Of a stretch of 64,000 nucleotides of DNA, positions 1 through 49,007 are shown in pieces. The stretch covers positions 62,001-126,000 of the forward strand of contig NZ_JAAXCQ010000013.1 in the NCBI RefSeq assembly GCF_012272855.1, given 5' to 3'. The stretch comes from Arenibacter sp. 6A1 (GTDB taxonomy: Bacteria; Bacteroidota; Bacteroidia; Flavobacteriales; Flavobacteriaceae). A program made the position numbers and the translations under genes. Under the pieces are notes generated by a model. That model searched no databases and was not told where the DNA came from. It was given only the letters and a program-made list of their open reading frames with translations. Within the stretch, counting starts at the first letter, position 1. Each line of letters starts with the position of its first letter.

Positions 1-504
1 TGGTTACATTATTTGCCAGATTACCATAGCAATATTATAAAAGGAGAGATAACTTCGGAAGAACTGGTAAAAGAAGAGGCCGACACCCGATTAAATGAAA
101 TAAATCAGATATTAAAGGAAATAAAACCGATTTTGGACAATGCAGATAAAACACCAATTATTATGGCTGGTGATTTTAACACCAACTCACATTTAGATTG
201 GACAGAAGCAACCAAAGACGCCCATTTAGGTTATGTGGTGGAATGGCCCGTAACTAAGGTTATGCATAACCATGGATTCACCGATAGTTATAGAGAGTTA
301 AACCCAAATCCCTTAATTGATCCTGGGTATTCTGCATGGCCTTACAGTAGGCGTTTTGGGCAGCGCTATGTGGAAAGCAGAATAGATTATATTTTCTATA
401 AAGGAAGAAACATTAGAGCCTTAGAATCTAAAGTAGTGAACTATCACCCTATTATGTTTCCATCTGACCACGCCGCCTTTTTAACTATTTTTCAATTGAA
501 ATAA
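1..504 (+). CDS. EEP-family phosphodiesterase, C-terminal part (5' end outside window)
   Basis: The reading frame is open from the first base, so this is the last ~167 residues of a longer protein. It carries the C-terminal hallmarks of the endonuclease/exonuclease/phosphatase fold: AGDFN, SRIDYIF and PSDHA near the end. Family members hydrolyse phosphodiesters or phosphomonoesters with a bound divalent metal, and include sphingomyelinases, nucleases and inositol phosphatases. The AGDFN-x3-HLD and SRID[YF]I blocks closely match the next gene, so the two look like a tandem duplication. The TAA stop directly abuts the next ATG, indicating translational coupling. An apparent TTG start at 13 is only an artefact of the cut end. 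Substrate cannot be read from the sequence. Confidence 0.85.
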   Translation, partial: WLHYLPDYHSNIIKGEITSEELVKEEADTRLNEINQILKEIKPILDNADKTPIIMAGDFNTNSHLDWTEATKDAHLGYVVEWPVTKVMHNHGFTDSYRELNPNPLIDPGYSAWPYSRRFGQRYVESRIDYIFYKGRNIRALESKVVNYHPIMFPSDHAAFLTIFQLK

Positions 505-1548
505 ATGAGAAGAAACTTTAAAAATACCGTTCTAATTGTGACTGTATTACTGTTAATACTGAGTTTAGGTTGTAAGAACAAGTCTACTGCCTTAGACACT
601 TCCAAGTTTTCTTCATTAAAAGTAATGACCTGGAATATTTGGGGGAGATATAATTTGGAACCACGCTATACCATGGAAGGTAAAACCGCCCGAGAGCGGG
701 TTCTTGACATTATTAAAGATAGTGATGCGGATATTATTACCATGACGGAAACTTACGGTTCTGCACTAGCAATTTCGGAGGCTTTGAATTTTCACTATTA
801 TACGCCATCGGCAGATGCAAACCTCACCATTTTTAGCAGATATCCTTTAGAGGATTTTGGAAATGTAAACGGTTTATCACCTTTTTCTTTTATTGCTGCG
901 ACTGCTATTTTACCAAGTGATCAAAAAATTAGGGTTTATAACATATGGCTAACCAGTGGAGGAAGACATATTGTAGCGATTAAAGATAAAACACTCTCCG
1001 ATACTGAATTTAATGATGGGGACGAGAATCGTTATGAACATATTCAGCAGTTAATTCAACATGAGGACTTTAAAAAGGATTTAGTGAATAAAGATCAGGT
1101 TCCATTAATTGTTGCTGGAGATTTCAACTGTGTTTCTCATTTGGATTTCACGGAGGAAACAAAAGCTAATGGGTTGAATTTTAATAGGCTGGTTGCTAAT
1201 AAAACCTCCATGGCTATGGCCAATGCAAGTTTTACCGATACGTATAGGTCAACTAACCCTAAAATTACTCAAGAAACTTTGGGATATACTTGGACTACTG
1301 TAGGGTTGGAATTTACGTATGATTCTGACTTGGGCTTTGTACCCATTAAAACGGATACACATCCTGAACCCGAATACAGAAATCCTTTTTCTAGAATAGA
1401 TTTTATATATAGCACCGGCGAAAATATAATCCCCCTTAATTCTAAAACCATTGTCCATCATAGTTCTAATTTAAACAGGAGTTTTCCAGAATTCCCATCC
1501 GATCACGGTGCGGTATTAACGACTTTTCAAATAAATCAAAATAAATGA
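505..1548 (+). CDS. EEP-family phosphodiesterase lipoprotein
   Basis: This 347-residue protein has a basic N-terminus, a hydrophobic stretch and a cysteine at about residue 23, consistent with a lipoprotein. The EEP catalytic set is present: TWNIWG near residue 43, a metal-binding Glu in TET, GDFN with Asp206, SRIDFI, and SDH at 333-334. The fold is shared by neutral sphingomyelinases and other Mg-dependent phosphodiesterases. It starts immediately after the upstream stop and overlaps the next start by 4 bp (ATGA), so the three EEP genes are probably co-translated. It is a paralogue of the upstream partial gene but has a longer insert before SRID. The substrate is unknown; the GH116 and phosphatase neighbours point to an extracytoplasmic phosphorylated glycoconjugate (inference). 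Confidence 0.85.
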   Translation: MRRNFKNTVLIVTVLLLILSLGCKNKSTALDTSKFSSLKVMTWNIWGRYNLEPRYTMEGKTARERVLDIIKDSDADIITMTETYGSALAISEALNFHYYTPSADANLTIFSRYPLEDFGNVNGLSPFSFIAATAILPSDQKIRVYNIWLTSGGRHIVAIKDKTLSDTEFNDGDENRYEHIQQLIQHEDFKKDLVNKDQVPLIVAGDFNCVSHLDFTEETKANGLNFNRLVANKTSMAMANASFTDTYRSTNPKITQETLGYTWTTVGLEFTYDSDLGFVPIKTDTHPEPEYRNPFSRIDFIYSTGENIIPLNSKTIVHHSSNLNRSFPEFPSDHGAVLTTFQINQNK

Positions 1549-2441
1549 ATTTAAGATATCTTATTTTAATCTTTTTGTTTGGTATTACGAGTGTTGTTTC
1601 TTCGCAAGAAAACTTACGCGTATTAACCTTTAATATTTGGGACCCTGCTGACATTCCATTTTGGGATAAACACGCTAATGGTTACCCGGTTGGTAAATTG
1701 GTAGATTACGTCACGGAAGATAACGCTGATGTTTTATTGTTCCAGGAAGTAACTTTGGAAAAACCACCCCATCATCAATCCTACGCCAGTATTAAAAATC
1801 AACTTATTAAAAAGGGATATATTTATTCTGCCTTTTACAAACCTAACGGAACTACGGGTTATGTTCCAAATTCTACAAACAGTGGTTATCCATTAGCTAT
1901 GTTTAGCAAATTTCCAATTGAAGAAACCTTTACAACGCAACAAACAAGTGAAAAAAGGATGGGCAAGGGGCTATTAGGTGTTAAAATAAGAGTTAAAGAT
2001 AAGGCGCTATTTATTTTCAACACCCATTTAAATATAGGGAACCATACCACTGATGATGAAATAAGTAAAGTAGCATTGCCTTTTATTAAGGAGGTCACAG
2101 TCAACGATATGGTAATATTCGCTGGTGATTTCAACAGTCCACCTGCTGCAGAGTTTCCCAATTCATCCAAAAAAATTGGTGATTATACGTATAGTTCGCA
2201 AACCACACAATTTTTAATCGATGCCAATTTTAATGATGCTTGGGTGTTTCTCCCGAATAACCATAAAAAAGGTAATGGAGTAACCTGTCCTGGACAAGAC
2301 GATTATATTAAACGTGTTGACCAAGTTTATTTTAAAGGAAATGGTTTAAAACCAACTTTTGCTTTTGCAAAACGCAATCTATGGGAATCTATTAATTTAT
2401 TAGACCATAATGGGGTAGTGGTCGATTTTGTTATTGAATAA
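1545..2441 (+). CDS. Secreted EEP-family phosphodiesterase (sphingomyelinase-like fold)
   Basis: This 298-residue protein has a cleavable signal peptide of about 20 residues ending near VVSSQ. EEP motifs appear in order: TFNIWD, LFQEVT (metal Glu), FNTHLN, AGDFN, RVDQVYFKG and LLDHNG. The F-N-T-H-L-N and G-D-F-N blocks are those used by secreted bacterial sphingomyelinase-type enzymes, although many unrelated phosphodiesterases share them. The final SDH motif reads LDH, which keeps the catalytic Asp-His pair. The ATG overlaps the previous stop (ATGA). It is clearly less similar to its two upstream neighbours than they are to each other, so the array holds at least two EEP subtypes. Confidence 0.85.
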   Translation: MNLRYLILIFLFGITSVVSSQENLRVLTFNIWDPADIPFWDKHANGYPVGKLVDYVTEDNADVLLFQEVTLEKPPHHQSYASIKNQLIKKGYIYSAFYKPNGTTGYVPNSTNSGYPLAMFSKFPIEETFTTQQTSEKRMGKGLLGVKIRVKDKALFIFNTHLNIGNHTTDDEISKVALPFIKEVTVNDMVIFAGDFNSPPAAEFPNSSKKIGDYTYSSQTTQFLIDANFNDAWVFLPNNHKKGNGVTCPGQDDYIKRVDQVYFKGNGLKPTFAFAKRNLWESINLLDHNGVVVDFVIE

Positions 2442-2518
2442 CCGTTAACGTTTTTAGAGGTCACCATTGTGAAGCAAGAAACTTTGATTTAAAAATTCTA
2501 ATTAAAAGATATCTATCA

Positions 2519-3415
2519 ATGAGAAAAACAATTATAGGAATGATTGTGGTTATATCATTTTTAAGTGTTCACTTGGTCAACGCACAAGTTAACAAATCTG
2601 TAAAGGTGATTAGTTATAATATTTGGAATGGCTTTGATTGGGGTAAAGATACCGATCGAAAAAAGCAGTTTATAGATTGGGTAAACACCCAAAATCCGGA
2701 TGTATTTGCCCTGCAGGAATTATGTGGATATACACAGGAAAAACTGTTGGATGATGCTAAGAAATGGGGGCATAACTATGCTGAAATTTTAAAAACTTCT
2801 GGGTATCCGGTTGGGATTACATCAAAGGAACCAATAGAGGTAAAAGAAAGGATATTGGATGATATGCATCACGGGGCCTTACATTGTAAGGTATATGGTA
2901 TTGATGTTTTTGTAATTCACTTTTCACCATTTAGCCATCAAAAAAGACGGGAGGAAGTAAAGATTATATTAGATAAACTAACCAATCTTACAACTGGGCA
3001 GGATAAGTATTTAGTTTTAGGAGATTTCAATGCTTTGTCACCTTTTGATGCCTATCTCTATAGAGATAAAGCAGGGCTTTTGGAGGATAAAAGAGCTTCG
3101 GAAAGAGAACACGACCATGTTAGAAACTTATTAGATGATGAATTGGAATACGGTGTAATTGGGTCTCTTTTAGGCTATCCTTTAATTGATGTTGTTCAAA
3201 GGTTTACTACCAGATGGGAGGATAGATTGAGCTGTCCCACACAGGTGTTTGAAACCGAAAAGGGAGAAGGCCCTAATAAAAACTCTACTCGAATAGATTA
3301 TATTTTAAGTTCCCCTTTTTTAGCGAAGAAGTGTGTAAACGCAACGGTGCTTAATAAAAAAGAAACTTACTATTTATCTGACCATTATCCAATTTTAGCT
3401 GAATTTGTATGGTAG
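2519..3415 (+). CDS. Secreted EEP-family phosphodiesterase
   Basis: Fourth EEP protein of the array, 298 residues, with a signal peptide ending near VNAQ at about residue 23. Visible motifs are SYNIWNG, LQELCG (metal Glu), VIHFSPFSH, LGDFN, TRIDYIL and SDHYP. The His in VIHFSP replaces the usual NTHL but keeps the catalytic His position. It lies 77 bp after the third EEP gene and 34 bp before the first GH116 gene. Having four EEP enzymes side by side implies division of labour on several phosphoester linkages, or successive steps on one polymer (inference). Confidence 0.85.
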   Translation: MRKTIIGMIVVISFLSVHLVNAQVNKSVKVISYNIWNGFDWGKDTDRKKQFIDWVNTQNPDVFALQELCGYTQEKLLDDAKKWGHNYAEILKTSGYPVGITSKEPIEVKERILDDMHHGALHCKVYGIDVFVIHFSPFSHQKRREEVKIILDKLTNLTTGQDKYLVLGDFNALSPFDAYLYRDKAGLLEDKRASEREHDHVRNLLDDELEYGVIGSLLGYPLIDVVQRFTTRWEDRLSCPTQVFETEKGEGPNKNSTRIDYILSSPFLAKKCVNATVLNKKETYYLSDHYPILAEFVW

Positions 3416-3449
3416 AACTTATTAATAAACAATTTAAAAATGACCTAAA

Positions 3450-6065
3450 ATGATAAAAATAATTGCCTTAATGTTTATTGGGTTTTTAGTATTTGATTTA
3501 GACGCTCAAAATCCAGATTCAGAAATTTATTCCGGAAATCAATTAAAATATATTGGAATGCCAGTAGGCGGGATGAATAGTGGACAGGTGTACTTAGGAG
3601 GAGATGGTCAATTGTGGTATTGGGATATTTTTAATATTCAACGTATTGAACCTGGTGGGCCAGGTGATAAGTTTTACCTAAATCCAATGACCCAAGACAA
3701 ACAATTTGACCAAGGGTTTGCGATAAGGGTTAATAAATTACTGCCCACTACCATTACTCCAATAGTTAAGCCGTTAAACAGCAACGGATTTGCAGATATT
3801 ACTTTTAGAGGTGAATATCCAATAGGGAAAGTTACATTTAAAGAACCTGACTTCCCTATTTCGGTTTTATTGAATTCCTACTCTCCTTTTATTCCAACTG
3901 ATCATGAGTCTTCGGATTTCCCGGCGGTGGTTATGGAATACACCTTGACTAACGATTCTAAATCTGATATTACGGTAGAGTTGTTTGGATGGTTGCAGAA
4001 TATGGTTAATTATAAAACTTCAGATATGGCTATAGGTAAACATCGAAATACTGTATTAAAATCAGATAGTATTGCTCAGTTGTTTTTAGATTCCGATGTG
4101 GTTGCTGATAATAAGGATTTTCCAGATTATGGTAATATGTCCTTAACTCTATTAGAGGGGAAAGATGCTTGGGCTTCACCGAATGCTCCTAAAGATATTG
4201 ATTATAACCTTACGCAAGTTAAGGGCTCCGAGAAGAATAAGGCAGAATTACCTTTGGGAAATACATTGACTGGGGTATTAGGTAAAGAGTTAACATTAAA
4301 GCCAGGGGAAAGTAATACTCTGACCTTTATTTTGTCTTGGTACTTCCCTAATGTGCATAGAAAAGAAAGTGGTTTTCATGATTTAAAGAAAAGAGAAAAT
4401 CTGAGACACTATTACAGCAAGAAATTTAGTTCTTCTGCAGAGGTGGCAAAAACCATTGCAGGAGATCAAAAAAAATACCTTGGCACCACTAAAATATGGA
4501 ACAATACTTGGTATGATTCCTCATTGCCAGATTGGTTTTTAGATAGAACATTCATTAACACAAGTACTCTAGCCACAACATCCTGCTATCGGCTACATGA
4601 CCTAACCGAGGACCCGGACAATGAGGGCCGTTTCTATACTATGGAAGGAGTGTATCTAGGTCATGGTACTTGTACTCACGTATTTCACTATGAACAGGCA
4701 CTTGGCCGAGTGTTCCCCGGTTTGGCTCGTCAATTAAGAACGCAGGTAGACTATGGGCTCTCTTTTAGAAAAGATGGAATAATTAAATATAGGGCTGAAT
4801 TAAGTGATATTGGAGATCATGATGGTCGTGGTTATGCGGTGGATGGACATGCGGGAACAATTCTCAGAGCTTATCGAGAACATACTACTGCACCCAATAT
4901 GGAATATTTAAAGACCTATTGGCCAAAAATCAAGAAGAGCTTGGAATACATGATTGCCCACGATGCAGAAAAGTCGATAAAGCCAGATGGTATTTTAGAG
5001 GGAATCCAATATAACACACTTGATAAAATGTGGAATGGAAAAAATACCTGGATCAGTAGTATGTATAATGCAGCACTACAGGCAGGCATAGCGATGGCAA
5101 AAGAATTAGGAGATAAAAAATTCACTGAAGAGTGTGAGGCCATAGCCGAAAAGGGCAAAAGAAATATGGTAGACCAATTGTTCGATGGGGAATATTTTAT
5201 CAATATTCCCGATCCTGACAACAGGGAAAATCCGAATACAAACATTGGTTGTCATATTGATCAGGTTTTGGGGCAAGCCTGGGCCTTACAAACAGGACTG
5301 CCACGTGTTTTGCCCAAGAAAGAAACCGTTAGTGCTCTACAGTCAATTTATAAGTATAATTTCCAGAAAGATATAGGTAAGTATTTAGATACTGCTACCA
5401 TTAAAAATGTACGCTTCTATGCCTTACCAGGAGAGTCGGGAACCATAATGTGTACATTTCCAAAAGGTGGGGCATCCGAGGCCAAGGGCACTAAAGCTGC
5501 TGAATGGGATAATTTGGTGATAGGCTATTTTAGTGAATCCATGACTGGCTTTACTTATCAGGCAGCAGCTCATATGATCGGAGAGGGCTTGGTAGATGAG
5601 GGAATGACAATGATCAAAGCTATTCATGACCGCTATGCACCTAGTAAAAGAAATCCATATAATGAAATTGAATACGGCAATCATTATACACGTGCAATGT
5701 CTAGTTATGGTGCATTTATTACAGCCTCTGGATTTACATTAAATGAACCGAATGGAAAAATAGGGTTTGCCCCTAAAATCACCCCTGAAAATTTTAGGTC
5801 AGCTTTTATTACTGGAAGTAGTTGGGGTACATTTTCTCAAAATGTAAAGAACGGACAGCAGAGAGCGAGATTAGTGATTGAATATGGTGCATTAAAACTA
5901 CAAGAAGTTAGTTTGGATGAATTGTCGGACTCAAAGCACGTGATGGTGACTTTAAATGGTGAAAAAGTAAAAGCAAAGTTGAAGAATAAAAACAATGAAG
6001 TAATGGTATCATTTAAACCTATCTCGCTTATAAAAGGTGATAAACTTGAGATTGAAATTAAATAA
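3450..6065 (+). CDS. GH116-family glycosidase (glucosylceramidase/beta-glucosidase type), secreted
   Basis: This 871-residue protein has a short signal peptide ending near DLDAQ. The N-terminal ~330 residues form the GH116 beta-sandwich ([24 protein letters not shown]). The (alpha/alpha)6 catalytic domain follows. By alignment of motifs with TxGH116 and human GBA2, the nucleophile is probably Glu399 (GRFYTMEG) and the acid/base Asp525 (YNTLD). GH116 enzymes cleave beta-glucosides or beta-xylosides, including glucosylceramide. The closest relative here is the truncated gene at the window end, not the adjacent one: motif spacing between the two catalytic residues is identical (126). It lies 9 bp upstream of the second GH116 gene. 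The sugar actually cleaved is unknown. Confidence 0.85.
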
Positions 6066-6074
6066 TAATAAAAT

Positions 6075-8795
6075 ATGTCGCAGAAATTATTTTTTTTAAT
6101 CGTTATAGGGGCTTTAAGTATCAGTTTACAGGCTCAGGTTGCCGAAGAATTAAAGGTCAAATCAGTAATAAACAATACTTTAGAAAATAAAGACGCTCTT
6201 TTAAAGGACTACTATAAGTTGAGCAATGAGGCCGGACTTCTAACGCGCGGTTCCCAGACAGTGTATAAAGACGAAAATTTAACCGCAATCCAATTCCCAG
6301 TAGGGGGTATTGGCACAGGGAGTATTCAATACGATGGACAGGCTGTACCACGATATTGGCAAATTTTCAATAATATGGGGCATGATTTCATCCCAAATAG
6401 TTTTTTTGCAATTCGCACAAAACAAAAACAAAAGATTAAGGTAAGAGCATTGCAAACCAAAGAAGTTGGTTCTTTTAAACCAATGAAATCTTTAGAAGCT
6501 ATTGGTAGGTTTCCATTTTTAGAATATATTTTTGATGATGATCTTCCTGTAAAAGTTACGATGGAAATCTTCAATCCATTTATACCAACTAATAGTAAAG
6601 AATCTGGTATTCCTGCTGTTTTTTATGTGTTCACCATAAACAATATATCAAGTGATAAAGTGTCGGTGAATCTTCTGGCTTCACAACAAAATGCAGTGGG
6701 GTTTTCAAAATTACCACTTGTAAATCACGAGAAATCATTTGCCGATAATTTTAACTATAGTATTAATCGTAGACCAGTAACCGGTAATAATTTTGAGTAT
6801 TACAAGGGGAATACAAACTCAATAGTTTCTGAAAAAGGAGCCGAAATTTTGTTAATGGAAGGTAATGATCCCAGTGATAGTGAACATTTTGGGGAAATGG
6901 CAATGGTGGTTTTTGATAAGGAAGGAAAAACAAAAGGGATTGCTAGTTGGAATAATGAAATAGAACTCTACTCCATATTTGAAAAGTTCGGCAAATTAAA
7001 AGGCGATTTGATTGCTAAAAGTAGTGATGAAGGCAGCACATTTACTGGTGCTTTAAATACCTCATTAACATTGAAACCTGGAGAAGTTCGTACGGTTAAA
7101 ATGGCATTAGTTTGGTATTTTCCTAATGGGAGAAATGGTGGTAAAGCGGATAAGTGGGATGCTTGGGGAAACGGTGATTGGGAAGGTGATGGTAATTTTT
7201 ATGCGAATCATTGGAAAAGTATCAAAGAACTCACTAATTATTTAAAAGAAAACCATGAAATATTGACCCGTAGAACCCGAAATTTTACAAATTCGTTTTT
7301 TGAAACAAACTTACCCTATTGGTTAGTTGAACGTATTAGTAATCAGTTGGCTATCCTTAAAAGTCGAACTATTTTTCACGATAAAAATGGATATGTAGGG
7401 CTATGGGAAGGAACTGGGGGAGTAGATGGTTCTTGTTCAGGAAATTGCAATCATGTTTGGCATTATGCCCAATCACATGCAAGGTTATTCCCAGAGTTGG
7501 GAAGATCGATCAGAAATCAAACCTTTAACAGTATAAAGGAGAACGGTGAAATACCATATCGCCAACCTGCGGGTAGTGTAGCGTTTGATGGGCAATGTGG
7601 GGATATATTAGGAGCTTATAGAGAGCATTTATTGTCACCAGATAACACTTGGCTTAAAAGCCAATACCCTACAATTAAAAAAGCGATGAACTATCTGGTG
7701 AATGGGTATGATGAAGATAAAGATGGATGGCTATCCGATACAGCCAAACACACAACATACGATGCTTCAATGTCAGGGAATCCGTCCTTTTTAAGCTCTT
7801 TATACTTAGCAGCTTTAAGAGCTAGTGAAAAAATGGCAATTATAATGGGAGATAACAATCAGGCAGAAGAATGGAAAAATATAGCCGATAACTCAGCTAA
7901 ATTACAATCAGAAAAGCTGTGGAACGGAGAATATTTTTACCAAATACCTGGTGCAATACGTGCCACTGATTATGAAAATGCCTGTCATTCTGATCAGTTA
8001 TTGGGGCAATGGTGGGCAGATCAATTGGGTTTAGGAAGTTTGTATCCCGATTATAAAATTAAGTCAGCAAACGAGGCAATTTTAAAGTATAATTTTAAAA
8101 GTAATTTAAAAAATCACGATCAAGGCCATAGAACCTTTGCCTTACGTGAGGAAGCGGGAATGGTAGTGAGTACGTGGCCAAACAAAGATAGAACTGAATA
8201 CGCGTCGGGGTATTCTAGTGAGGTGTGGTCCACTTTTGAATATACAATAGGGGCCTCCTTAATTAAATATAATAAAATCCGAGATGCGCTAACTATTTTA
8301 CGGTCCGGTTATAACCGTTATGATGGAAAATTAAGAACAGGTTATATAGGAGACTGGGGTAATTTTGGGTTTAGCGGTAATCCTTTCGGTGATGATGAAT
8401 GTGGTCAGTTTTACGGAAGGGCGCTCTCTATTTGGTCAGTTCTATTAAGCGCTCAGGGTTTTGAGTACAATGGACCGGAGCAAATAATTGGATTTGACCC
8501 AAAATGGAAACCAGACAATCATATTTCATTCTTTTCTACTGCAGAAGGTTGGGGTAATTTTTCTCAGAAACGAAATGAAAACACTCAAGTAAATACCATT
8601 ATACTGAAATATGGGAAACTAACACTTTCACAGCTATTCTTAACAATAGAAAATGAGATTCAAGATGAGGTCAGTGTAACCCTTAATGGAAAGGACATAA
8701 AATCAACATTTGATAAAAAAGGCAAAATAGTAACTGTTAGCCTTGAATCGGTTGGTTTACGAGAAAGTGACAAAGTTGAAGTTACCATTCAATAA
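6075..8795 (+). CDS. GH116-family glycosidase, divergent paralogue, secreted
   Basis: This 906-residue protein has a signal peptide ending near SLQAQ. The beta-sandwich (FPVGGIGTGSIQYDG, YWQIFNN) is followed by the catalytic (alpha/alpha)6 domain, with likely nucleophile Glu445 (GLWEG) and acid/base Asp563 (HTTYDASMSG, a form closer to the QTYD of GBA2 than its neighbour has). It also keeps the NCNHVWHYAQ block that corresponds to CTHVFHYEQ next door. The two adjacent GH116 proteins therefore represent different subgroups and probably different specificities. The gene sits 9 bp after the first GH116 gene and 10 bp before the sulfatase start, so it is clearly in the same operon. Confidence 0.85.
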   Translation: MSQKLFFLIVIGALSISLQAQVAEELKVKSVINNTLENKDALLKDYYKLSNEAGLLTRGSQTVYKDENLTAIQFPVGGIGTGSIQYDGQAVPRYWQIFNNMGHDFIPNSFFAIRTKQKQKIKVRALQTKEVGSFKPMKSLEAIGRFPFLEYIFDDDLPVKVTMEIFNPFIPTNSKESGIPAVFYVFTINNISSDKVSVNLLASQQNAVGFSKLPLVNHEKSFADNFNYSINRRPVTGNNFEYYKGNTNSIVSEKGAEILLMEGNDPSDSEHFGEMAMVVFDKEGKTKGIASWNNEIELYSIFEKFGKLKGDLIAKSSDEGSTFTGALNTSLTLKPGEVRTVKMALVWYFPNGRNGGKADKWDAWGNGDWEGDGNFYANHWKSIKELTNYLKENHEILTRRTRNFTNSFFETNLPYWLVERISNQLAILKSRTIFHDKNGYVGLWEGTGGVDGSCSGNCNHVWHYAQSHARLFPELGRSIRNQTFNSIKENGEIPYRQPAGSVAFDGQCGDILGAYREHLLSPDNTWLKSQYPTIKKAMNYLVNGYDEDKDGWLSDTAKHTTYDASMSGNPSFLSSLYLAALRASEKMAIIMGDNNQAEEWKNIADNSAKLQSEKLWNGEYFYQIPGAIRATDYENACHSDQLLGQWWADQLGLGSLYPDYKIKSANEAILKYNFKSNLKNHDQGHRTFALREEAGMVVSTWPNKDRTEYASGYSSEVWSTFEYTIGASLIKYNKIRDALTILRSGYNRYDGKLRTGYIGDWGNFGFSGNPFGDDECGQFYGRALSIWSVLLSAQGFEYNGPEQIIGFDPKWKPDNHISFFSTAEGWGNFSQKRNENTQVNTIILKYGKLTLSQLFLTIENEIQDEVSVTLNGKDIKSTFDKKGKIVTVSLESVGLRESDKVEVTIQ

Positions 8796-8805
8796 AAACA
8801 TAATA

Positions 8806-10344
8806 ATGAAGAACATTAAAAATATGACCATATATAAAGGTGTAGTTATTGTTAAAACTATAGTTTCACTAATAATAGTAGTGAGCTGTCAAAATGTTGT
8901 CAAAAATACAAAATCTCTAGCACCTACACCTCCAAATATTGTTTACATAATGGCAGACGACTTAGGTTATAATCATCTTGGTGCATACGGACAAAGAAAA
9001 ATAAAAACCCCCAATATTGATAATTTAGCTCAAGAAGGTATACGTTTTACTCAGTTTTATGCAGGGGCAAGTGTATGTGGCCCTTCCAGAACCTCACTTA
9101 TGCTAGGTTTACACACAGGGCACGTACCGTATCGTGAAAACCGCGATAATCATTTAGCAAAAGAATATGCGCCTTATGGCAAATTAAAAACGTTGGGGCA
9201 AATAATGAAAGAGGCAGGTTACGAAACAGGTTACTTTGGTAAATATGGTATTGGAGGACCTGAAGATGTAAATTCAGGTTTAAAACCTAACGATATAGGA
9301 TTTGATAACTTTATGGGACTAGTTGAGCATGGACATGGACATTTTCACTATCCAGCTTATATTTGGTATAACAAAGAAAAATATTTATTGAACAATATAA
9401 CTAGAAAAGGCAATCGCCCATATGGATTAAGTGGAACTAATATTAAGGACCGAAGAGAACATACCGATGATGTTTTTTCACTTAAAGCAATAGAATTCAT
9501 TGAAGAAAAAGCCAAAACCAAACAACCTTTCTTTTGTTTTTTATCTTTCAGCTTACCGCATGCTGAAATGTTAGCAAATGAGAAATTTGTAGAACCATAT
9601 AAACAATTAGGATGGGAAGAGTATAACTCTATAAATAATGGATATCACGTAGCTACTAGTACGCCTAAAGCCAATTTTGCGGGAATGGTTTCTCAAGTAG
9701 ATTATTGGATAGGAGAAGTGATAAAAGTATTAGAAAAAGCAGGAATTTCTGAAAACACTTTGGTAATATTTACTTCAGATAATGGCGGACAAATGCGAGA
9801 AACTTGGGGTGATGTACCTTCAATTTTCTTTGAGGCCAATGGCAAACTTAAAAAAGGAAAAACATGGAACTACGAAGGTGGAATTCGAGTACCCATGATT
9901 GCTAAATGGCCTGAAAAAATTAAACCAAATACGGTTAGTGATTACATAGGTTACTTTCCTGATTTTATGCCAACTTTTGCAGAAATTGCCTATAAGGAGA
10001 ACTTGGTTCCTCAAAAAATAGATGGTATATCTTTTGTAGATGCTTTAATGGGTAAAGATAACATACAAAAACAGCATGAATACCTCTATTGGGAGCTTCC
10101 TGACTATGTGGAAAAGGGGACTACCTATGAAATTCATAAAACCAGATTACGTCAAGCGATCCGTTTTGGAAAATGGAAAGTAGTAAGAGAAGATATTAAT
10201 GACCCTATAGAGTTGTACAACCTTAACGAAGACATAGGTGAGCAAAATAATTTAGCAGAAAATCACCCAGATGTCGTAGCTAAAGCACTAGAAATATTAA
10301 AAGAAGCACATTTAGAGCCTAAAGCACTTCCTTTATATAATTAA
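8806..10344 (+). CDS. Type I (formylglycine) sulfatase, lipoprotein
   Basis: The first ATG in frame (8743) would overlap the upstream gene by over 50 bp, so the ATG at 8806 is preferred. It gives a 512-residue protein with a hydrophobic leader ending at Cys28 (VVSC), a likely lipidation site. The sulfatase signature Cys91-Gly-Pro-Ser-Arg95 is the site of formylglycine formation. Metal-binding MADD is at 49-52 and SDNGGQ at about 325. Type I sulfatases remove sulfate esters from sugars. It is the only sulfatase in the window, so it indicates a sulfated component but not a heavily sulfated polymer. No anaerobic maturase gene is nearby; maturation would depend on a gene elsewhere. Confidence 0.9.
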   Translation: MKNIKNMTIYKGVVIVKTIVSLIIVVSCQNVVKNTKSLAPTPPNIVYIMADDLGYNHLGAYGQRKIKTPNIDNLAQEGIRFTQFYAGASVCGPSRTSLMLGLHTGHVPYRENRDNHLAKEYAPYGKLKTLGQIMKEAGYETGYFGKYGIGGPEDVNSGLKPNDIGFDNFMGLVEHGHGHFHYPAYIWYNKEKYLLNNITRKGNRPYGLSGTNIKDRREHTDDVFSLKAIEFIEEKAKTKQPFFCFLSFSLPHAEMLANEKFVEPYKQLGWEEYNSINNGYHVATSTPKANFAGMVSQVDYWIGEVIKVLEKAGISENTLVIFTSDNGGQMRETWGDVPSIFFEANGKLKKGKTWNYEGGIRVPMIAKWPEKIKPNTVSDYIGYFPDFMPTFAEIAYKENLVPQKIDGISFVDALMGKDNIQKQHEYLYWELPDYVEKGTTYEIHKTRLRQAIRFGKWKVVREDINDPIELYNLNEDIGEQNNLAENHPDVVAKALEILKEAHLEPKALPLYN

Positions 10345-10373
10345 CCCTTAACAAACATTTAGTGGAGGTGAGT

Positions 10374-10409
10374 TTTAATTATAAATGAAAAAAAACATTC
10401 ATAATTAAA
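10374..10409. repeat. AT-rich inverted repeat (possible hairpin)
   Basis: A 14-nt stem (10374-10387 with 10396-10409, one mismatch) encloses a loop of eight A residues between the sulfatase and the first metallophosphoesterase gene. It lacks a T-tract, so it is more likely an RNA processing or stability structure than a terminator. Its function is not known. Confidence 0.45.
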
Positions 10410-10477
10410 GTATATACACTTAGGAATAGTAAAATGAAAGTTACATCCTACAGATATAAAACAATAATAATTAACAG

Positions 10478-11494
10478 ATGAAAAGACGCAAGTTTATTGA
10501 ACAAATAGGTGTTGGATCAGCAGCAACAATGTTTCCAACCACATTATTATCATTTACACCATCACTATTTTCTGAAAGAAGGGCAAATTCGCTTAAAATC
10601 GGTATTGTATCGGATGTACACAAGGATTTAATGCCAGATGCCGATAAGCGCTTAGAAACCTTTATCAACAAAGCTATTGATAAGAAAGTTGATTTTATAA
10701 TTCAAATGGGTGACTTCTGTTTCGCAGAAACAAAAAATAAAGCTTTTTTAAATATTTGGGAACAGTTTAAAGGTCCCAAATATCATGTTTTGGGCAATCA
10801 TGACATGGATAAAAATTCGAAGGATGAAATGTTGGACTTCTGGGGGATGCCTAAAACATATTATTCATACGATTTTGGAGGCTATCATTTTATTGTATTA
10901 GATGCCAATTTCTTATATCAAGATGGGGAGTTCATCGACTACAAAAATGCAAATTTCTATGTAGATGATAGTGCCAGAACCTTTATAGATGACGAGCAAA
11001 TAGAATGGTTTAAAGCTGATTTAGAGGCTACAAAGCTCCCGACTATGGTGTTTTCACATCAAAGTTTATGGCACTACCAATGGGGTGTTAAAAATCGCCT
11101 TACCCTTCAGAAAATTATGGAAGCCCATAATGAAAAGGTGATTTGTTGCCTTAACGGACACAATCATTTGGATTATCATCATCATCAAAACGGAATTGAT
11201 TATATAGAAATCAATAGCATGTCGTATCAATGGTTGTCAGCTAAATATAAAAGTACTCAGCGTTTTCCAAAAGAGTTTTATGACCAATACGGCAATCTTC
11301 CCCAAATAGGAGCTTATAAAGATCCATTATACGCATTTGCAACACTAAATGCAAAGGGTACAATGGAGATAGAAGGAGTAAAAAGTACATGGATGTCACC
11401 TTCTCCTTACGAAATGGGTATGGACAAAGGAATTGATGGGATGGTTTATTCAGCTAAAATGTCAGATTATAAAATAAAATTTAAAAAGAGGTAG
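10478..11494 (+). CDS. Metallophosphoesterase with Tat-type signal
   Basis: This 338-residue protein begins MKRRKFI, a twin-arginine-like export motif followed by a short hydrophobic stretch. Calcineurin-type metal ligands are all visible: Asp46 and His48 (SDVH), Asp79 (GDF), Asn107-His108 (GNHD), His in FSHQ, and His228/His230 (GHNH). Such enzymes hydrolyse phosphomono- or diesters with two metal ions. A conserved C-terminal region (SPSPYEMG) is shared with the next two phosphoesterases, so these form one subfamily. It is separated by 1 bp from the next gene. The gene-to-gene similarity suggests local duplication followed by specialisation. Confidence 0.88.
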   Translation: MKRRKFIEQIGVGSAATMFPTTLLSFTPSLFSERRANSLKIGIVSDVHKDLMPDADKRLETFINKAIDKKVDFIIQMGDFCFAETKNKAFLNIWEQFKGPKYHVLGNHDMDKNSKDEMLDFWGMPKTYYSYDFGGYHFIVLDANFLYQDGEFIDYKNANFYVDDSARTFIDDEQIEWFKADLEATKLPTMVFSHQSLWHYQWGVKNRLTLQKIMEAHNEKVICCLNGHNHLDYHHHQNGIDYIEINSMSYQWLSAKYKSTQRFPKEFYDQYGNLPQIGAYKDPLYAFATLNAKGTMEIEGVKSTWMSPSPYEMGMDKGIDGMVYSAKMSDYKIKFKKR

Positions 11495-11495
11495 A

Positions 11496-12455
11496 ATGGA
11501 ACGCCGGAAATTTTTAAAAAACACGATTCAAACAGGTATTGCATTGTCCATTCCATTACCCTTATCTGCGTTTCAATCAAATAATCATAAAAAGCTAAGA
11601 ATAGGTTTGGTTGCCGATGTGCATCAAGATACTATACATGATGGCTATGAGCGCCTAAAGTATTTTATGGATGATATGAATGAACGCCAACCTGATTTTT
11701 TAATTCAATTGGGAGATTTCGCCCTTCCTCATAAGTATAATGAACCATTTCTAGACATCTGGAATAGTTATAAACACCCTACCTATCATGTACTGGGTAA
11801 CCATGATATGGATGATGGATTTACAAAGGAAGAAACTATGGCTTGGTGGAGAATGAAAGAACGTTATTATTCTTTTGATAGTAATGGATTTCATTTTGTG
11901 GTTTTGGATGGTAATAAAAAAGGTGCTCCATGGATAGGCTATATTGATGAAGAACAGCAAGAATGGCTAAAACAAGATTTAGCAGGTACAAAAAGTCCAA
12001 CGATTATAGTTTGTCACCAAAGTTTAGAAAGAGAACATGATTGGGGAGTGACCAATGGGGATCAAATTAGATCGATTATTGAACAAGCAAATATGGATGA
12101 TAATAAAGCAAAGGTTATTGCTTGTTTAAGTGGGCATCATCATGAAGATTATGTAAGGGTTATTAATAATATTGCTTACATACAAATCAATAGTATGTCA
12201 TATAAATCCTTAGGTGATGGTAAATATTCAAATATTCGTTTTCCAAAGCATATAGAACATGCACATCCTATTTTAAAACTAACATTTCCGTACAGAGACC
12301 CATTATATACTATGTTGACCATTGATCCAGAAGGTCATACTATACATATTGAAGGGTGTTCAACTGTATATATTTCTCCTTCACCTAAAGAGGCAGGTTT
12401 AGATGATGAAGGCAAAATAACTTCGACTATTACGGAACGAAATATTAAATATTAA
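11496..12455 (+). CDS. Metallophosphoesterase with Tat-type signal
   Basis: This 319-residue protein starts MERRKFLKN, a twin-arginine-like leader. Metal-binding motifs are ADVHQD, LGDFA, GNHDMDDG, CHQS and SGHHHEDY. The C-terminal SPSPKEAGL block matches SPSPYEMG in the upstream paralogue and GPGPDELG in the third. The gene starts 1 bp after the previous stop and ends 1 bp before the next start, so it is firmly within an operon. Export by the Tat route would fit loading of the metal centre in the cytoplasm before secretion (inference). The substrate is unknown. Confidence 0.88.
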   Translation: MERRKFLKNTIQTGIALSIPLPLSAFQSNNHKKLRIGLVADVHQDTIHDGYERLKYFMDDMNERQPDFLIQLGDFALPHKYNEPFLDIWNSYKHPTYHVLGNHDMDDGFTKEETMAWWRMKERYYSFDSNGFHFVVLDGNKKGAPWIGYIDEEQQEWLKQDLAGTKSPTIIVCHQSLEREHDWGVTNGDQIRSIIEQANMDDNKAKVIACLSGHHHEDYVRVINNIAYIQINSMSYKSLGDGKYSNIRFPKHIEHAHPILKLTFPYRDPLYTMLTIDPEGHTIHIEGCSTVYISPSPKEAGLDDEGKITSTITERNIKY

Positions 12456-12456
12456 A

Positions 12457-13047
12457 ATGAAGACTATAAAAATAGTTAAAGCAATTACTATCCTGGCGCT
12501 TATGTGTGCCTGCAATATGGGAAAAGAACCTGAAAGGGAAACAATCTTAATAGAAGAAGTTAAGGAGACCTCAAATTGGAAAACAGATTTAGAGGCTAAA
12601 TTGAAATTATATGGACATCGAAACTGGATAGTTATTGTCGATGCTGCCTACCCACAACAAAGTAATCCAGCTGTTGAGACCATTACAATTAATGCTTCCC
12701 AACTTGAGACTGTAGAATATGTTAGTGATTTAATATCAAAATCCACCCATGTAGATGCTAATATTTTTGTGGATAAGGAAATGACTTTTGTTCCAGAAAA
12801 AAATGCCAAAGGAATTACGGATTATAGAAACAATTTATTTTCAATTTTAGAAGGAAAACCTGTGAAAACGATAATGCATGAAGATATTATTCGTAAACTA
12901 GATTCATCCGCAAAATTATTTAATGTGCTAATTCTTAAAACAAACCTAGCAATTCCATATACCTCGGTCTTCTTTCAACTCGAATGTGGTTATTGGAATT
13001 CAGATTCCGAAAATGAATTGAGAGAAGCTTTAGCACGAGACAACTAA
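12457..13047 (+). CDS. RbsD/FucU-like sugar mutarotase domain lipoprotein
   Basis: This 196-residue protein has a lipoprotein-like leader (cysteines at 17 and 19). After a ~40-residue linker it shows features of the RbsD/FucU family (ribose pyranase, L-fucose mutarotase). These are a GH pair at 53-54, the IVIVDAAYP strand at 58-66 matching the family's IVIADAxFP, a later His141, and a C-terminal IPYTSVFF block (~167) matching the family's PYANIIL. Known FucU/RbsD proteins are cytoplasmic decamers of 130-150 residues that interconvert sugar anomers, so a secreted, lipid-anchored form is unusual. It would feed the fucI/fucP module at 51-57 kb if it acts on L-fucose (inference). It lies 1 bp after a metallophosphoesterase gene. 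Assignment rests on motif reading only. Confidence 0.65.
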   Translation: MKTIKIVKAITILALMCACNMGKEPERETILIEEVKETSNWKTDLEAKLKLYGHRNWIVIVDAAYPQQSNPAVETITINASQLETVEYVSDLISKSTHVDANIFVDKEMTFVPEKNAKGITDYRNNLFSILEGKPVKTIMHEDIIRKLDSSAKLFNVLILKTNLAIPYTSVFFQLECGYWNSDSENELREALARDN

Positions 13048-13129
13048 CTATACTTACAATTTTTACTCCCCAAATCCAATAAGTGGCTAATGCTAGACAT
13101 GGATAATTTAAAAATAAATCAAATTCGAA

Positions 13130-14128
13130 ATGGAAACTAAAAGTATTCAAAAATCAGAAAATAGTAGAAGAAATTTTTTAAAAGCATCAACCTTGGCTGG
13201 AACAGCAATGGTGTTACCATTTGATGTACTTGGTGTAAACCTAGGAAGAGAGAAAATAGAAATAGGTTTAATCGCTGATATACATCAGGATGTTATGCAC
13301 GATGGGGAAGAACGTTTGCAAGCCTTTTTAGATGCTGCCAAAAAACGTGATCCAGATTTCATTATGCAAATGGGCGATTTTTGTGTTCCCCACGACCATA
13401 ATAAAGGTTTTATGGCTCGGTGGAGTAATTACCGAGGTGATAAATATCATATACTTGGAAATCATGATATGGACCATGGCTTTAGTAAAGAACAAACGAT
13501 GGCTTTTTGGAATATGCCTAAAAAGTATTATTCTTTTGATAAAAAGGGGGTTCATTTTATTGTTTTGGATGGGAACGATCAAAATCCAGAACCATGGGAC
13601 GGTTATAAGCGATACATAGGCGACGTTCAAAAAAACTGGTTGATTGATGACTTAGCAAAAACAAAGAAACCTACCATTGTTTTTAGTCATCAAACATTAG
13701 AACTGGAAGAAACTGGTGGTGTTGCTAATTTTAAAGAGATTCAAAATATTTTTGAAAAAGCGAATAAGGAAGCCGGATTTAAAAAGGTGTTGTGCTGCTT
13801 GAGTGGACATCATCACACCGATTTTATGACACAGATTAATGGTATCTATTACGTACAAATAAATAGCGCATCTTATTATTGGGTAGGTGGTGATTATAAA
13901 ACAGTGCGTTTTAGTGAGGCTGTTGATAAAACTCATCCCTGGATAAAATATACTGTTCCATATAAAGATTCATTGTTTACGTTTATGACGATAAAGAATA
14001 ATAAAATTATTCTTGAACCAAGAAAAACTGAGTTTGTTGGCCCTGGACCTGATGAATTGGGAATGCCGGAACGCCATTCTCATGAGCCAATTGTACCAAC
14101 CATTTCTGCGTTTAAAATGAAAATATAG
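13130..14128 (+). CDS. Metallophosphoesterase with Tat-type signal (intact copy of a duplicated gene)
   Basis: This 332-residue protein has a typical Tat motif (SRRNFLKA). Metal ligands are in ADIHQD, MGDFC, GNHDMDHG, FSHQ and SGHHHTDF. It is the third member of the local phosphoesterase family, ending with GPGPDELG. From about base 13289 onward it is almost identical to the broken copy at 46.2-47.2 kb, while the first ~50 codons differ clearly. It is 82 bp downstream of the FucU-like gene and is probably the last gene of the first operon. This copy has no disruptions and is likely the functional one. Confidence 0.88.
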   Translation: METKSIQKSENSRRNFLKASTLAGTAMVLPFDVLGVNLGREKIEIGLIADIHQDVMHDGEERLQAFLDAAKKRDPDFIMQMGDFCVPHDHNKGFMARWSNYRGDKYHILGNHDMDHGFSKEQTMAFWNMPKKYYSFDKKGVHFIVLDGNDQNPEPWDGYKRYIGDVQKNWLIDDLAKTKKPTIVFSHQTLELEETGGVANFKEIQNIFEKANKEAGFKKVLCCLSGHHHTDFMTQINGIYYVQINSASYYWVGGDYKTVRFSEAVDKTHPWIKYTVPYKDSLFTFMTIKNNKIILEPRKTEFVGPGPDELGMPERHSHEPIVPTISAFKMKI

Positions 14129-14219
14129 TGAGTTTTTTTAGGTCTTTTCTTAATACAAGCTACAAAAGTTAATTATAAGATAACCAAATTTCTAGAAACC
14201 GTAAATTTAAAAAGCAGTA

Positions 14220-14587
14220 TGGTAAGTGGTCCTAAGGGACTTCGGAAAGAACACCCTTATTGTCAAATACAAAGAGCACTTGGCCAAAATGATGTCGGAA
14301 TGGTATATGGAGAGTTCACGTATTTTTATGACAGAATAAACTAGGCCCTATGATTATACTTTGGAAGTGTGCTCCCTCACCGAAATTTTAACTTAAAGGG
14401 AGGGGGCGGCTTTCAGTTGGCTGTTCGTTATGCCGTTCTTTCCGGCCTAGAACCAGACAGTCTTAAAAATATTTCTACAGGTTTAATTCTGTAGCTTAAT
14501 CCAACTGAGAAAATCTTGGCTACTTATATGTTTTCCTTGGCTTCTAAAGAACCAACTAAGGTTAAATATCAGGGATTTAGAGGATAG
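14220..14587 (+). pseudogene. Decayed OprP-type (phosphate-selective) porin C-terminus, copy A
   Basis: Conceptual translation in shifting frames gives YGEFTYF, NFNLK, GFQLAVRYAVLSGLEPDS and ATYMFSLASKEPTKVKYQ. These resemble the last beta-strands of OprP/OprO-type porins (a FGRV-PxxNF...GAFQLAVRYS...LNP...NY order). At least two frameshifts and stops (for example after YDRIN and after GLIL) separate the pieces, so it is not functional. It follows a phosphoesterase gene directly. Copy B keeps a longer stretch of one frame (RPYDYTLEGFGRVLP), while copy A keeps a 21-bp piece deleted from B. Confidence 0.6.
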
Positions 14588-15224
14588 CAGTTATGGGTTG
14601 AATTAGATTTATAACGAATTTAGATTGAAGGGACGGGATTGTATATTTTGGAAGGAAGTATAATTGGATCGATTTTGTTTTAATTGTACAACTTACGTAT
14701 TGAAAATAAATATATAGTTGGTAAATTGGAGAGAAAAGTGAATATTGCGCAATAGGCATTAAATATTAACCTAGTCTTAATGCGATTTTTTGTCACTTTG
14801 TCTTTGTCCTGGATTATTCCTTGGTTGGAGACTGGTTATGACACAAATAAAGAAGGCTCCAAAAATCATCTATGATTCAGCACATGGGGAAGTAGGTTTT
14901 GGAATGAAAACTGATGTTGGCTAAAGCGGATAAAACATCAATTATTATTAAAATTTAGCCCTACATAACAAGTTTGTTCCAATTAGGACTGGAACACAGC
15001 TAATATTAAAAGTTGGAAACTTGACAATAAACCCATTGAGGATAACTAAAAAATGATTCTAAAAATCAGCTTAGTTTCGATAACCATTGTCCATAAAAAT
15101 TATAAATAAAACTCCCAAAAGTGGGCCATTTGTTGGCTATGAGTTGTCACGGGGCCCAATAAATTGGGGATTAAACATTATCGAGTGAAATTCATAAGGA
15201 GATTTTTAAAAGAAAACGAAGTTA
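14588..15224 (+). other. Decayed non-coding stretch, no intact gene
   Basis: About 640 bp with many stops in all frames. One short frame near 14853-14924 reads KKAPKIIYDSAHGEVGFG and is preceded in another frame by a signal-peptide-like MRFFVTLSLSWIIPW (start near 14780), suggesting the dead start of another exported protein. I do not recognise its family. The same stretch is repeated at 47.6-48.2 kb. A purine-rich AAGGAG lies at about 15197, some 20 bp before the following gene. Confidence 0.4.
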
Positions 15225-15926
15225 ATGTTCAAAATTAAAGAAAAATTAAATTTTAAATTAATGAGAGCTTCGAAAAAAACTAGAATGTTTTGGTTTGCAA
15301 TTTTGGTGCTGTTAACCCTTGTAGAAGGAAAAGTAAATGCACAGAATAGAGAGTCTGGGGTAACGGAGCTTTGGCAAGAGTTATATGTATATAAAAATTT
15401 TAATAAAAAGTGGAGAGGTGAAATTCTTTTTAATAACTTATATAGTTCAGAATTTGGGAATTACGATTGGTTTCTAGAGGGGAAATCTGCTTTTAAAATT
15501 ACAAAATGGCTGGGTGTTGAAGCAATTTACCGCCAGGAATATTATGATTTAAATGGTTCGAAAGTTGTAGAATATAGACCAATGATAAGGTTCTCTGGAA
15601 AAATTAAAATTCGAGATTGGCGCATTCGAAATCGGCATCGTATTGAATTAAGGATGTTTGAAATTGGCGAAACAAGACTACGGTATAGGACAGACTTGAA
15701 GATTAAACCAAGCTTCAACTGGACCAATCTAAACCTTAACCCTTACGTGTTGGAGGAAATTTTTATTAACCAAAACGGTTTTTCAAGAAATAGGGTTTAT
15801 GTGGGTATTGAAGGAAAAATATGTCGGTTTGAACCTGCTATTTATATGCTGTTGCAATCGAATATAAAATCTAATAATTGGGACAACCAGCCAATAGTTG
15901 GAATTATGATGGGGTTTGAGTTGTAA
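15225..15926 (+). CDS. DUF2490-family outer-membrane beta-barrel protein, copy A
   Basis: Up to 233 residues. The ATG at 15261 (MRASKK...) gives a normal signal peptide ending at VNAQ, so it may be the true start; the earlier ATG adds 12 residues. The body is rich in alternating aromatic and charged residues (WRGEILFNNLY, EAIYRQEY, IRNRHRIELR, RVYVGIEG) and ends in F-E-L, typical of a small outer-membrane barrel of the DUF2490 type. The function of the family is not established. A copy with only a handful of substitutions lies at 48264-48965, and both remain open although genes on either side have decayed, which suggests some selection or recent duplication. Confidence 0.75.
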   Translation: MFKIKEKLNFKLMRASKKTRMFWFAILVLLTLVEGKVNAQNRESGVTELWQELYVYKNFNKKWRGEILFNNLYSSEFGNYDWFLEGKSAFKITKWLGVEAIYRQEYYDLNGSKVVEYRPMIRFSGKIKIRDWRIRNRHRIELRMFEIGETRLRYRTDLKIKPSFNWTNLNLNPYVLEEIFINQNGFSRNRVYVGIEGKICRFEPAIYMLLQSNIKSNNWDNQPIVGIMMGFEL

Positions 15927-15968
15927 CGGCTAATTCTAAAACGTACAAAAGAAAAATAGTTAGATTAG

Positions 15969-16217
15969 GTTGCCTATCTCAATGGGGACAAAACACCGGA
16001 GGAAGCAAAGAAGGATGGTTATACGGGATTAGATTATAATTATAAGGTTTATAAGAAGAATCCAAAATGGATAAAGGAAGCCCAAGATCTTGGGTTGACA
16101 GTAAATGTATGGACAGTTAATAAGGAGGAAGATATGAAGGACCTTTTACGGCAATTGGTAGAATGCATTTCTACCGATGAACCAGAATTACTATATAAGA
16201 TTTTAGAAGGAAAATAA
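15969..16217 (+). pseudogene. Glycerophosphodiester phosphodiesterase C-terminal remnant, copy A
   Basis: An open stretch of 82 codons ending at TAA reads like the tail of a GDPD enzyme: TPEEAKKDGYTGLDYNY, then WIKEAQDLGLTVNVWTVN and ISTDEPELL. These are the final strands of the GDPD TIM barrel. No start codon or N-terminal catalytic half is present, so this is a truncated remnant. GDPD enzymes release glycerol-3-phosphate from phosphodiesters, in line with the other phosphoesterases here. Confidence 0.75.
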
Positions 16218-16483
16218 GTTTTTATGAAGTCGATCAATTCTTCAAATTAATTGTTATAAAGCCTATCTAAAAGAAATGAAACCTCTAGTATTTTGTATTG
16301 ATTTATTTTGTATTTTTATGGAGCAAGAGACGGATTAATTTTATGTCAGATTGTACCAAATAATGCTATTTTAAACCGAGTTTAGAGTTCGGTTAACAGT
16401 TTAATAAAACGGGGTTAAATCATTGATAGTTAGTGATTTATGCATAAGACTCTAGGTCTGTCATCCCGACTGAACTAAATTAA

Positions 16484-46049: not shown

Positions 46050-46180
46050 ATTTAGCGAATGACACTTCGAAAATAAAGAATGCCAAAATCTATCTATCGA
46101 CAATTATTTCCTTTCAAGGTATTTAGGATATGGTTGATGCTATATGGCAATATAATATTAATAATAAAAATAAATCCGAA

Positions 46181-48965: not shown

Positions 48966-49007
48966 CGGCTAATTTTAAAAACTTACGAAGGAAAATAGTT
49001 AGATTAG

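Follow-up and report, generated by a model that had tools for sequence, protein, structure and literature searches.

Which substrate is served by an operon that sets four EEP-family proteins and three metallophosphoesterases (MPEs) beside two GH116 glycosidases and a sulfatase? The question is raised by a stretch of 64,000 nucleotides from Arenibacter sp. 6A1 (genome 4.67 Mb), positions 62001-126000 of contig NZ_JAAXCQ010000013.1 (C4), which we call the window. We favor, with moderate confidence, a SusCD utilization locus that would harvest a glycan or glycoconjugate with phospho- or phosphonodiester substituents. The operon of this marine-type flavobacterium probably strips charged groups from an unusual glycan, and its genes are best read as a putative headgroup-stripping module joined in Arenibacter to glycosidases of the D-arabinofuranose type.

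Pfam searches bear out the gene set of the initial annotation: a plus-strand run with four consecutive EEP proteins (PF03372), two GH116 (PF12215 and PF04685), one sulfatase (PF00884), and three MPEs (PF00149). The spacing described there as mostly 0-80 bp is also right: in the open reading frame list, with the sulfatase start taken as 8806, the gaps of the run in the window are 0, -4, 77, 34, 9, 10, 133, 1, 1, and 82 bp, the exception being the 133-bp interval, the largest, which lies 5' of the first MPE (MPE1). The gene for an RbsD/FucU-like lipoprotein (12457-13047) had been overlooked, and the first EEP of that annotation is truncated at the window edge; the operon starts ~17 kb further left, in the stretch adjoining the window (L004, C4:42001-62000), with genes for an ECF sigma factor, FecR, SusC, and SusD. 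All of its genes are on one strand except that of an IS110-type transposase. With these genes, and with the PQQ-type MPE and NPP phosphodiesterase genes that are also upstream, the cluster is a SusCD utilization locus holding nine phosphoesterase-fold genes (four EEP, three MPE, the PQQ-type MPE, and NPP). Adjacent SusC and SusD genes, a linked regulator (ECF sigma/FecR), and carbohydrate-active enzymes (GH116) are the features by which SusCD polysaccharide utilization loci (PULs) are defined. An NPP-like fragment at L004:12799-13245 was not counted, since it scores 22.5 bits against a Pfam cut-off of 23 and tblastn gave no NPP match.

There are 16 EEP matches in the genome, and the adjacency of four of them in this operon is hardly due to chance. 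The N, E, GDFN, RxD, and DH positions are retained in all five aligned EEP sequences (the four of the operon and one on contig C6), and residues D50, H52, D83, N111, H112, H187, H227, and H229 (numbering of MPE3) in the 40 aligned MPEs. A twin arginine is visible by eye in MPE1 and MPE2; of the three MPEs only MPE3 matches the Pfam twin-arginine translocation (Tat) model, under the cut-off, and it passes the TIGR01409 Tat model in a scan that did not take in MPE2. The AlphaFold model of EEP2 (pLDDT 78) has the EEP fold, and a Foldseek search with it places TDP2 and ExoIII entries above human neutral sphingomyelinase (rank 38). EEP2 and EEP3, the two EEPs searched, have no sequence match in the PDB. 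Together these results do not favor the sphingomyelinase-type identity that had been suggested for the EEP proteins. MPE3 likewise has no sequence match in the PDB; the nearest folds to its model (pLDDT 89.5) are a zebrafish dimetal phosphatase and the GpdQ and Rv0805 phosphodiesterases, of which GpdQ is a glycerophosphodiesterase according to its entry title. The closest solved relative of the sulfatase is 7ana, named N-acetylgalactosamine-6-sulfatase.

The suggestion that the GH116 proteins are glucosylceramidases did not hold. The best PDB match of GH116a (E 1.6e-74) and of GH116b (E 1.8e-83) is the exo-beta-D-arabinofuranosidase ExoMA2 (8ic6), and the top glucosylceramidase matches are far weaker (E 9.6e-22 and 1.5e-24, respectively). 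Glu431, Asp557, Arg483, and His446 are the residues named for ExoMA2, and a beta-glucosidase has His507 in place of Arg483 and Asp452 in place of His446 (PMC10509167). GH116a residues E399, H410, R448, and D525 align with ExoMA2 E431, H446, R483, and D557, with an offset of four residues between the PDB chain and the numbering of the paper that was deduced by counting. A subfamily 1 glucosylceramidase or beta-glucosidase was rejected, since GH116a and GH116b have R and H at the columns where TxGH116 has His507 and Asp452. All four ExoMA2 residues are present in GH116a, GH116b, and GH116c (a third GH116, at the right end of the window) and in 22 of 22 aligned GH116 sequences (L227-L230 were not part of the alignment). 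To judge from these comparisons, both operon enzymes are ExoMA2-like members of subfamily 4 and may have exo-beta-D-arabinofuranosidase activity.

How widely does the combination recur? A scan of genome contigs with the MPE alignment gave at least 80 loci, which are not independent and contain an MPE by construction; neighboring genes were called with home-made profiles, and distances were measured between stop-to-stop frames. Of the 80 listed loci, 22 have an EEP frame no more than 3.5 kb from the MPE, 16 of them no more than 100 bp away; three have one at 3.5-7 kb. Several Bacteroidota groups and one planctomycete metagenome-assembled genome (MAG) are represented among the EEP-near-MPE loci, and merging look-alikes (L033/L036/L040/L051/L058/L070 from Flavobacteriales-type MAGs, L027/L034 from Sunxiuqinia, and L038/L095 from Cytophagales MAGs) reduces the 22 to 15. 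A second sample of 20 MPE regions overlaps the first in several genomes and is excluded from the counts. The gene order EEP-MPE-EEP is seen in L035, L038, and L095, and the two Sunxiuqinia loci have sulfatase, GH123, PQQ-type MPE, EEP, MPE, and NPP in a single run. The top seven SusC matches among the MPE-fetched loci (our own included) are each accompanied by EEP, PQQ-type MPE, or NPP, and contig C6 of the same genome has a second, smaller locus with SusC-/SusD-like genes, MPE, PQQ-type MPE, LamG-EEP, and GH123. These comparisons support a recurrent EEP-MPE partnership and a conserved phosphoester core; the earlier view of a utilization locus centered on phosphoester cleavage is supported.

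The initial annotation had named joint conservation of EEP, GH116, and the Tat phosphoesterases as a check, one that homologous clusters lacking EEP would fail. The outcome is split: EEP is close by in 22 of the 80 listed homologous MPE loci, and the homologous GH116 clusters lack it. Only four of the 80 listed MPE loci contain GH116 (L016, L039, L041, and L043), and neither EEP nor MPE is found near GH116 in any of 17 regions fetched by GH116 (15 genomes; two regions, L236 and L237, consist of short contigs, and contig ends truncate some of the rest), which rules out GH116-EEP co-conservation as a rule. Outside the genus, GH116a has its nearest relative (~70% identity) in L041, a Fulvivirga MAG, where a GH116b relative and then an MPE come next. 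In the phylum, 10 of 392 genomes, our own included, have a GH116a match with E no higher than 1e-60. A tally of neighboring families (50 of the 88 listed unassigned proteins scanned) gave no clear new partner: GH20, DUF1611, and MR_MLE are at the top, with four members each.

Arenibacter certesii (L016) retains EEP1-4, GH116b, MPE1, MPE2, the RbsD-like gene, and MPE3 in the same order, with MPE3 90% and EEP2-4 88-93% identical. GH116a is a fragment there (only residues 714-871 are matched, with one stop inside), and the sulfatase has no match in the stretch that was fetched. What is kept is therefore the phosphoesterase set together with GH116b and the RbsD-like gene. Ratios of nonsynonymous to synonymous divergence against A. 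certesii, in a set without EEP1, are ~0.25 for EEP2 (dN 0.058, dS 0.229), ~0.13 for EEP3 (dN 0.035, dS 0.257), ~0.14 for EEP4 (dN 0.030, dS 0.215), ~0.11 for MPE1 (dN 0.044, dS 0.417), and ~0.10 for MPE3 (dN 0.051, dS 0.535). Those of GH116b (~0.32), MPE2 (~0.28), and the RbsD-like gene (~0.23) each come from few changes.

In the utilization locus that we favor, the SusCD pair would bind oligosaccharides and import them. Exported EEP, NPP, and MPE enzymes would first take off groups attached by diester bonds and afterwards phosphate; sulfate would be removed by the sulfatase, and the subfamily 4 GH116 enzymes would release a furanose in exo linkage, probably beta-D-arabinofuranose. The freed sugar would be equilibrated by the RbsD-like protein, a relative of which is encoded next to GH116 in L155 (138 bits, home-made profile), and an isomerase and a kinase encoded in the same island would channel it into central metabolism. 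The phosphoester set, GH123, and the sulfatase would form the core shared with other such loci, in which GH116, here an addition, is rare. Of the substrate first suggested, a phosphoester-bearing glycan stands as an inference, and the glycolipid reasoning via GH116 and EEP is unsupported.

Several observations weigh against this interpretation. Besides the absence of EEP and MPE from the 17 GH116 regions, EEP is missing from the 3.5 kb around the MPE in 58 of the 80 listed MPE loci, 43 of which reach 3.5 kb or more to either side of it. The four ExoMA2 residues occur in all 22 aligned GH116 sequences, mostly from unrelated clusters, so that they are a signature of subfamily 4 and no proof of the substrate. 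Transcription as a single unit may have been lost, since the IS110-type gene separates the SusCD part from the phosphoesterases. The GH172-type (DUF2961) genes, which together with GH116 exo-enzymes, isomerase, and kinase are a trait of D-arabinan PULs, are on the same contig but outside the operon, ~30-72 kb from its GH116 genes. GH183 (DUF4185) has no match in the genome, yet 14 of 14 control genomes likewise gave none. The island also has fucosidase-type genes, so that its fucose isomerase (FucI) may serve L-fucose.

Comparison with known systems gives no full fit. In the Flavobacterium phosphate utilization systems (PUS), several phosphomono- and phosphodiesterases and, in some, phosphonate genes accompany a SusCD-type pair (PMC8115612), and co-location of a SusCD pair with both kinds of esterase is a PUS trait found in our operon. 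As described there, phosphoesterases replace carbohydrate enzymes beside the SusCD pair; the Arenibacter run, in contrast, includes ECF sigma/FecR, two GH116 genes, and a sulfatase. The D. gadei PUL42 (PMC10115798) and the Microbacterium D-arabinan cluster (PMC10509167) resemble the island in their subfamily 4 GH116 relatives, GH172-type genes, and fucose-isomerase-type gene, and differ, as described, from Arenibacter with its nine phosphoesterase-fold genes, sulfatase, and GH123. Judged by gene content, the locus appears to be a PUL variant that combines features of PUS and D-arabinan PULs and is set apart by its phosphoester module. A search of one open-access library turned up no account joining EEP/MPE phosphoesterases with polysaccharide utilization and GH123; such a locus may nevertheless have been described.

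The alternative that survives best, although we consider it unlikely, is phosphorus scavenging: the cluster would be a PUS whose SusCD pair and phosphomono- and diesterases take up organic phosphorus, the glycosidases being incidental. Flavobacterium PUS clusters are known with PusCD, phosphomonoesterases, phosphodiesterases, and phosphonate-degrading enzymes (PMC8115612), and the same genome has, on contig C58 (L235, C58:205001-225000), a single run of DUF5690, TIGR03364, PhnX-like, SusC-/SusD-like, purple-acid-type MPE, and NPP genes, which looks like an aminophosphonate-type phosphate utilization system. Against so simple a role, the Arenibacter operon has regulator genes of its own (ECF sigma and FecR) and includes a sulfatase gene and two GH116 genes, and GH123 lies just upstream.

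A more specific candidate for the charged substituent of the favored glycan is hinted at by gene neighborhoods in relatives: groups of the 2-aminoethylphosphonate (AEP) type. PbfD enzymes oxidize AEP and N-methyl-AEP to phosphonoacetaldehyde, which is then hydrolyzed by PhnX, and PbfD1 of A. baumannii carries the TIGR03364 annotation (PMC10590968). Genes of such PhnW/PhnX/PhnY/PbfA/PbfD clusters lie near MPE in some relatives. Five of the 80 listed MPE loci have aminophosphonate genes over NCBIfam cut-offs in their flanks (L039, L041, L056, L081, and L088), a count that excludes weaker hits near MPE in L023, L035, L064, L080, and L082, which had no NCBIfam scan. PhnW and PbfA are over the cut-offs and PhnY slightly under in L039 (Splendidivirga corallicola); PhnW is over and PhnY slightly under in L041, so that PhnW occurs in two of the three GH116-and-MPE loci outside Arenibacter. 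L081, the planctomycete MAG, has TIGR03364 (PbfD-type) and PhnX-like genes, both over cut-offs, then EEP, EEP, and MPE, consecutively on one strand, and L088 (Mucilaginibacter) has PhnY, TIGR03364, an FAD-type gene, DUF5690, an unassigned gene, and MPE, also on one strand. EEP is present as well in L039 and L081; DUF5690 and EEP assignments were confirmed. In L056 (Echinicola; TIGR03364 and PhnX-like) and in L178 of the second sample, which adds a PhnX-like gene over the cut-off and an FAD gene truncated by the stretch end, 6-9 kb and intervening genes separate the phosphonate genes from the MPE.

It is tempting to propose that EEP-MPE(-NPP) is an exported deblocking system that removes AEP or N-methyl-AEP from marine invertebrate or microbial phosphonoglycans or phosphonoglycolipids, and that in Arenibacter it forms part of a locus for a sulfated phosphonoglycan containing D-arabinofuranose; we hold this only tentatively and think it rather doubtful. 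The five of 80 listed loci far exceed a rough expectation of ~0.05 (80 loci x 13% x 21 kb of 4.5 Mb), and the link was spotted post hoc among related loci that are not independent. The reverse tests, in which a full-family MPE is one over 300 bits, also speak against it. Within the class, 20 of 396 genomes have a PhnW over the cut-off, and no full-family MPE or GH116 is near PhnW in any of 20 loci (disregarding a weak EEP in L218, 56 bits, and a weak MPE-type match in L211, 46 bits). With two of 80 listed loci in the forward direction, PhnW was rejected as a general MPE partner. A PhnX-like gene at E 1e-50 occurs in 22 of 261 genomes, our own included, and none of 21 such loci has an EEP or full-family MPE nearby (disregarding MPE-type matches in L270, 140 bits, and L275, 92 bits). 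In contrast to the clusters of PMC10590968, none of PhnW, PhnX, PhnY, PbfA, or PbfD was found in the Arenibacter operon, where phmmer gave NPP-type matches only; the TIGR03364 and PhnX-like pair of this genome is on C58. PhnW and PbfA have no match over the cut-off anywhere in the genome.

If the proposal were true, the EEP-MPE(-NPP) step would supply bound AEP to PhnW/PhnX/PbfD catabolism. We know of no enzyme that removes AEP from a glycan, though no dedicated search was made, and the recurrent EEP-MPE pair, in some genomes beside AEP genes, would give ready candidates.

Less probable again is a locus for D-arabinan of the lipoarabinomannan or arabinogalactan kind, with phosphoesterases opening phosphodiester anchors or caps. 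One contig carries three GH116 genes, five GH172-type genes (one inside the window and four to its right), FucI, and an FGGY kinase. PUL42 of Dysgonomonas gadei contains DUF2961 and DUF4185 genes, and its predicted fucose isomerase is the most abundant carbohydrate-active enzyme (PMC10115798). The lack of GH183 matches, shared with the control genomes, and the position of the GH172-type genes outside the operon speak against this, and the main text on D. gadei contains neither "phosphatase" nor "exonuclease", and "phosphodiest" once, for a chemical step (PMC10115798). The number of GH116 and GH172-type genes raises the question of which D-arabinofuranose glycan is present in the habitat. To the right of the window (L240, C4:126001-146000) lie the end of GH116c, the NPP gene that adjoins it, and GH43-like, SusC-/SusD-like, four DUF2961, and GH20 genes.

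The substrate might instead be a phosphosphingolipid such as an inositol-phosphoceramide, which EEP proteins of the sphingomyelinase type and GH116 enzymes of the glucosylceramidase type would cut. The GH123 family acts on GalNAc glycolipids, and a GH123 gene lies upstream; the fold matches of EEP2 include neutral sphingomyelinase. Given the low rank of that match and GH116 proteins that are not of the glucosylceramidase type, we regard this as highly improbable. The least probable reading, that neighbors in a gene-rich island grown via duplication serve several glycans, has on its side a duplicated 3.2-kb segment with MPE3 and a DUF2490 gene (13103-16306 and 46152-49345, 93.4% identity), more SusCD pairs nearby, the IS110-type gene, and a patchy MPE3 distribution (E 1e-60 or better in 23 of 395 family genomes, our own included, with two same-genus genomes lacking a match), and is opposed by the tight spacing and the gene order shared with A. 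certesii.

Table 1. Genes of the operon and of the surrounding island; positions are those of the window unless prefixed by a stretch name
Feature	Position	Strand	Basis or remark
GH123	L004:208-1989	+	ends 1.4 kb before ECF sigma gene
ECF sigma	L004:3382-3990	+	
FecR	L004:4336-5490	+	
SusC	L004:5643-9149	+	Plug, STN, CarbopepD_reg_2 domains
SusD	L004:9159-10883	+	PF07980
Two-LamG protein	L004:10874-12631	+	
IS110-type transposase	L004:13939-14910	-	between SusCD part and phosphoesterases
PQQ-type MPE	L004:15497-17974	+	
NPP phosphodiesterase	L004:17971-18915	+	
EEP1, 527-aa LamG-EEP protein	L005:8921-10504 (3' part = 1-504)	+	PF03372, PF13385
EEP2, lipoprotein-like start (by eye)	505-1548	+	PF03372, E 8.5e-22
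EEP3	1545-2441	+	PF03372, E 2.4e-10
EEP4	2519-3415	+	PF03372, E 4.7e-17
GH116a, ExoMA2-like (subfamily 4) putative glycosidase	3450-6065	+	Pfam, PDB search, alignment
GH116b, ExoMA2-like (subfamily 4) putative glycosidase	6075-8795	+	Pfam, PDB search, alignment
Sulfatase, CxPxR motif (by eye), lipoprotein-like start	8806-10344 (longer frame from 8743)	+	PF00884, E 8.3e-53
MPE1, calcineurin-like phosphoesterase, twin-arginine start	10478-11494	+	PF00149
MPE2	11496-12455	+	PF00149, 51 bits
RbsD/FucU-like lipoprotein, possible mutarotase	12457-13047	+	PF05025, E 1.9e-7
MPE3, Tat-signal MPE	13130-14128	+	PF00149; nearest solved folds include GpdQ, Rv0805
DUF2961 (GH172-type), neighboring locus, same island	39249-41342	+	PF11175, E 1.3e-57
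L-fucose isomerase family protein, same island	51384-53165	+	PF07881/PF07882/PF02952
FGGY sugar kinase, same island	53056-54792	+	PF02782/PF00370
GH116c	62238-64000, past window edge	+	52% identical to GH116a

Some minor features of the island may be added. A TraG-type conjugation gene on the minus strand (L003:15671-18073, C4:37671-40073) lies to the left of the ECF sigma gene at a distance of ~5 kb, and a conjugative element may adjoin the island. The second MPE3 copy, in the duplicated segment, carries an internal TGA, and a GDPD-like remnant was recognized by eye near 15960-16216. Two 819-aa proteins (29873-32332 and 43504-45963) have 30% mutual identity and no Pfam match. Positions 17291-20092 encode an NPCBM-containing protein, relatives of which recur near MPE in several loci (e.g., L017, L018, L025, L026, and L035).

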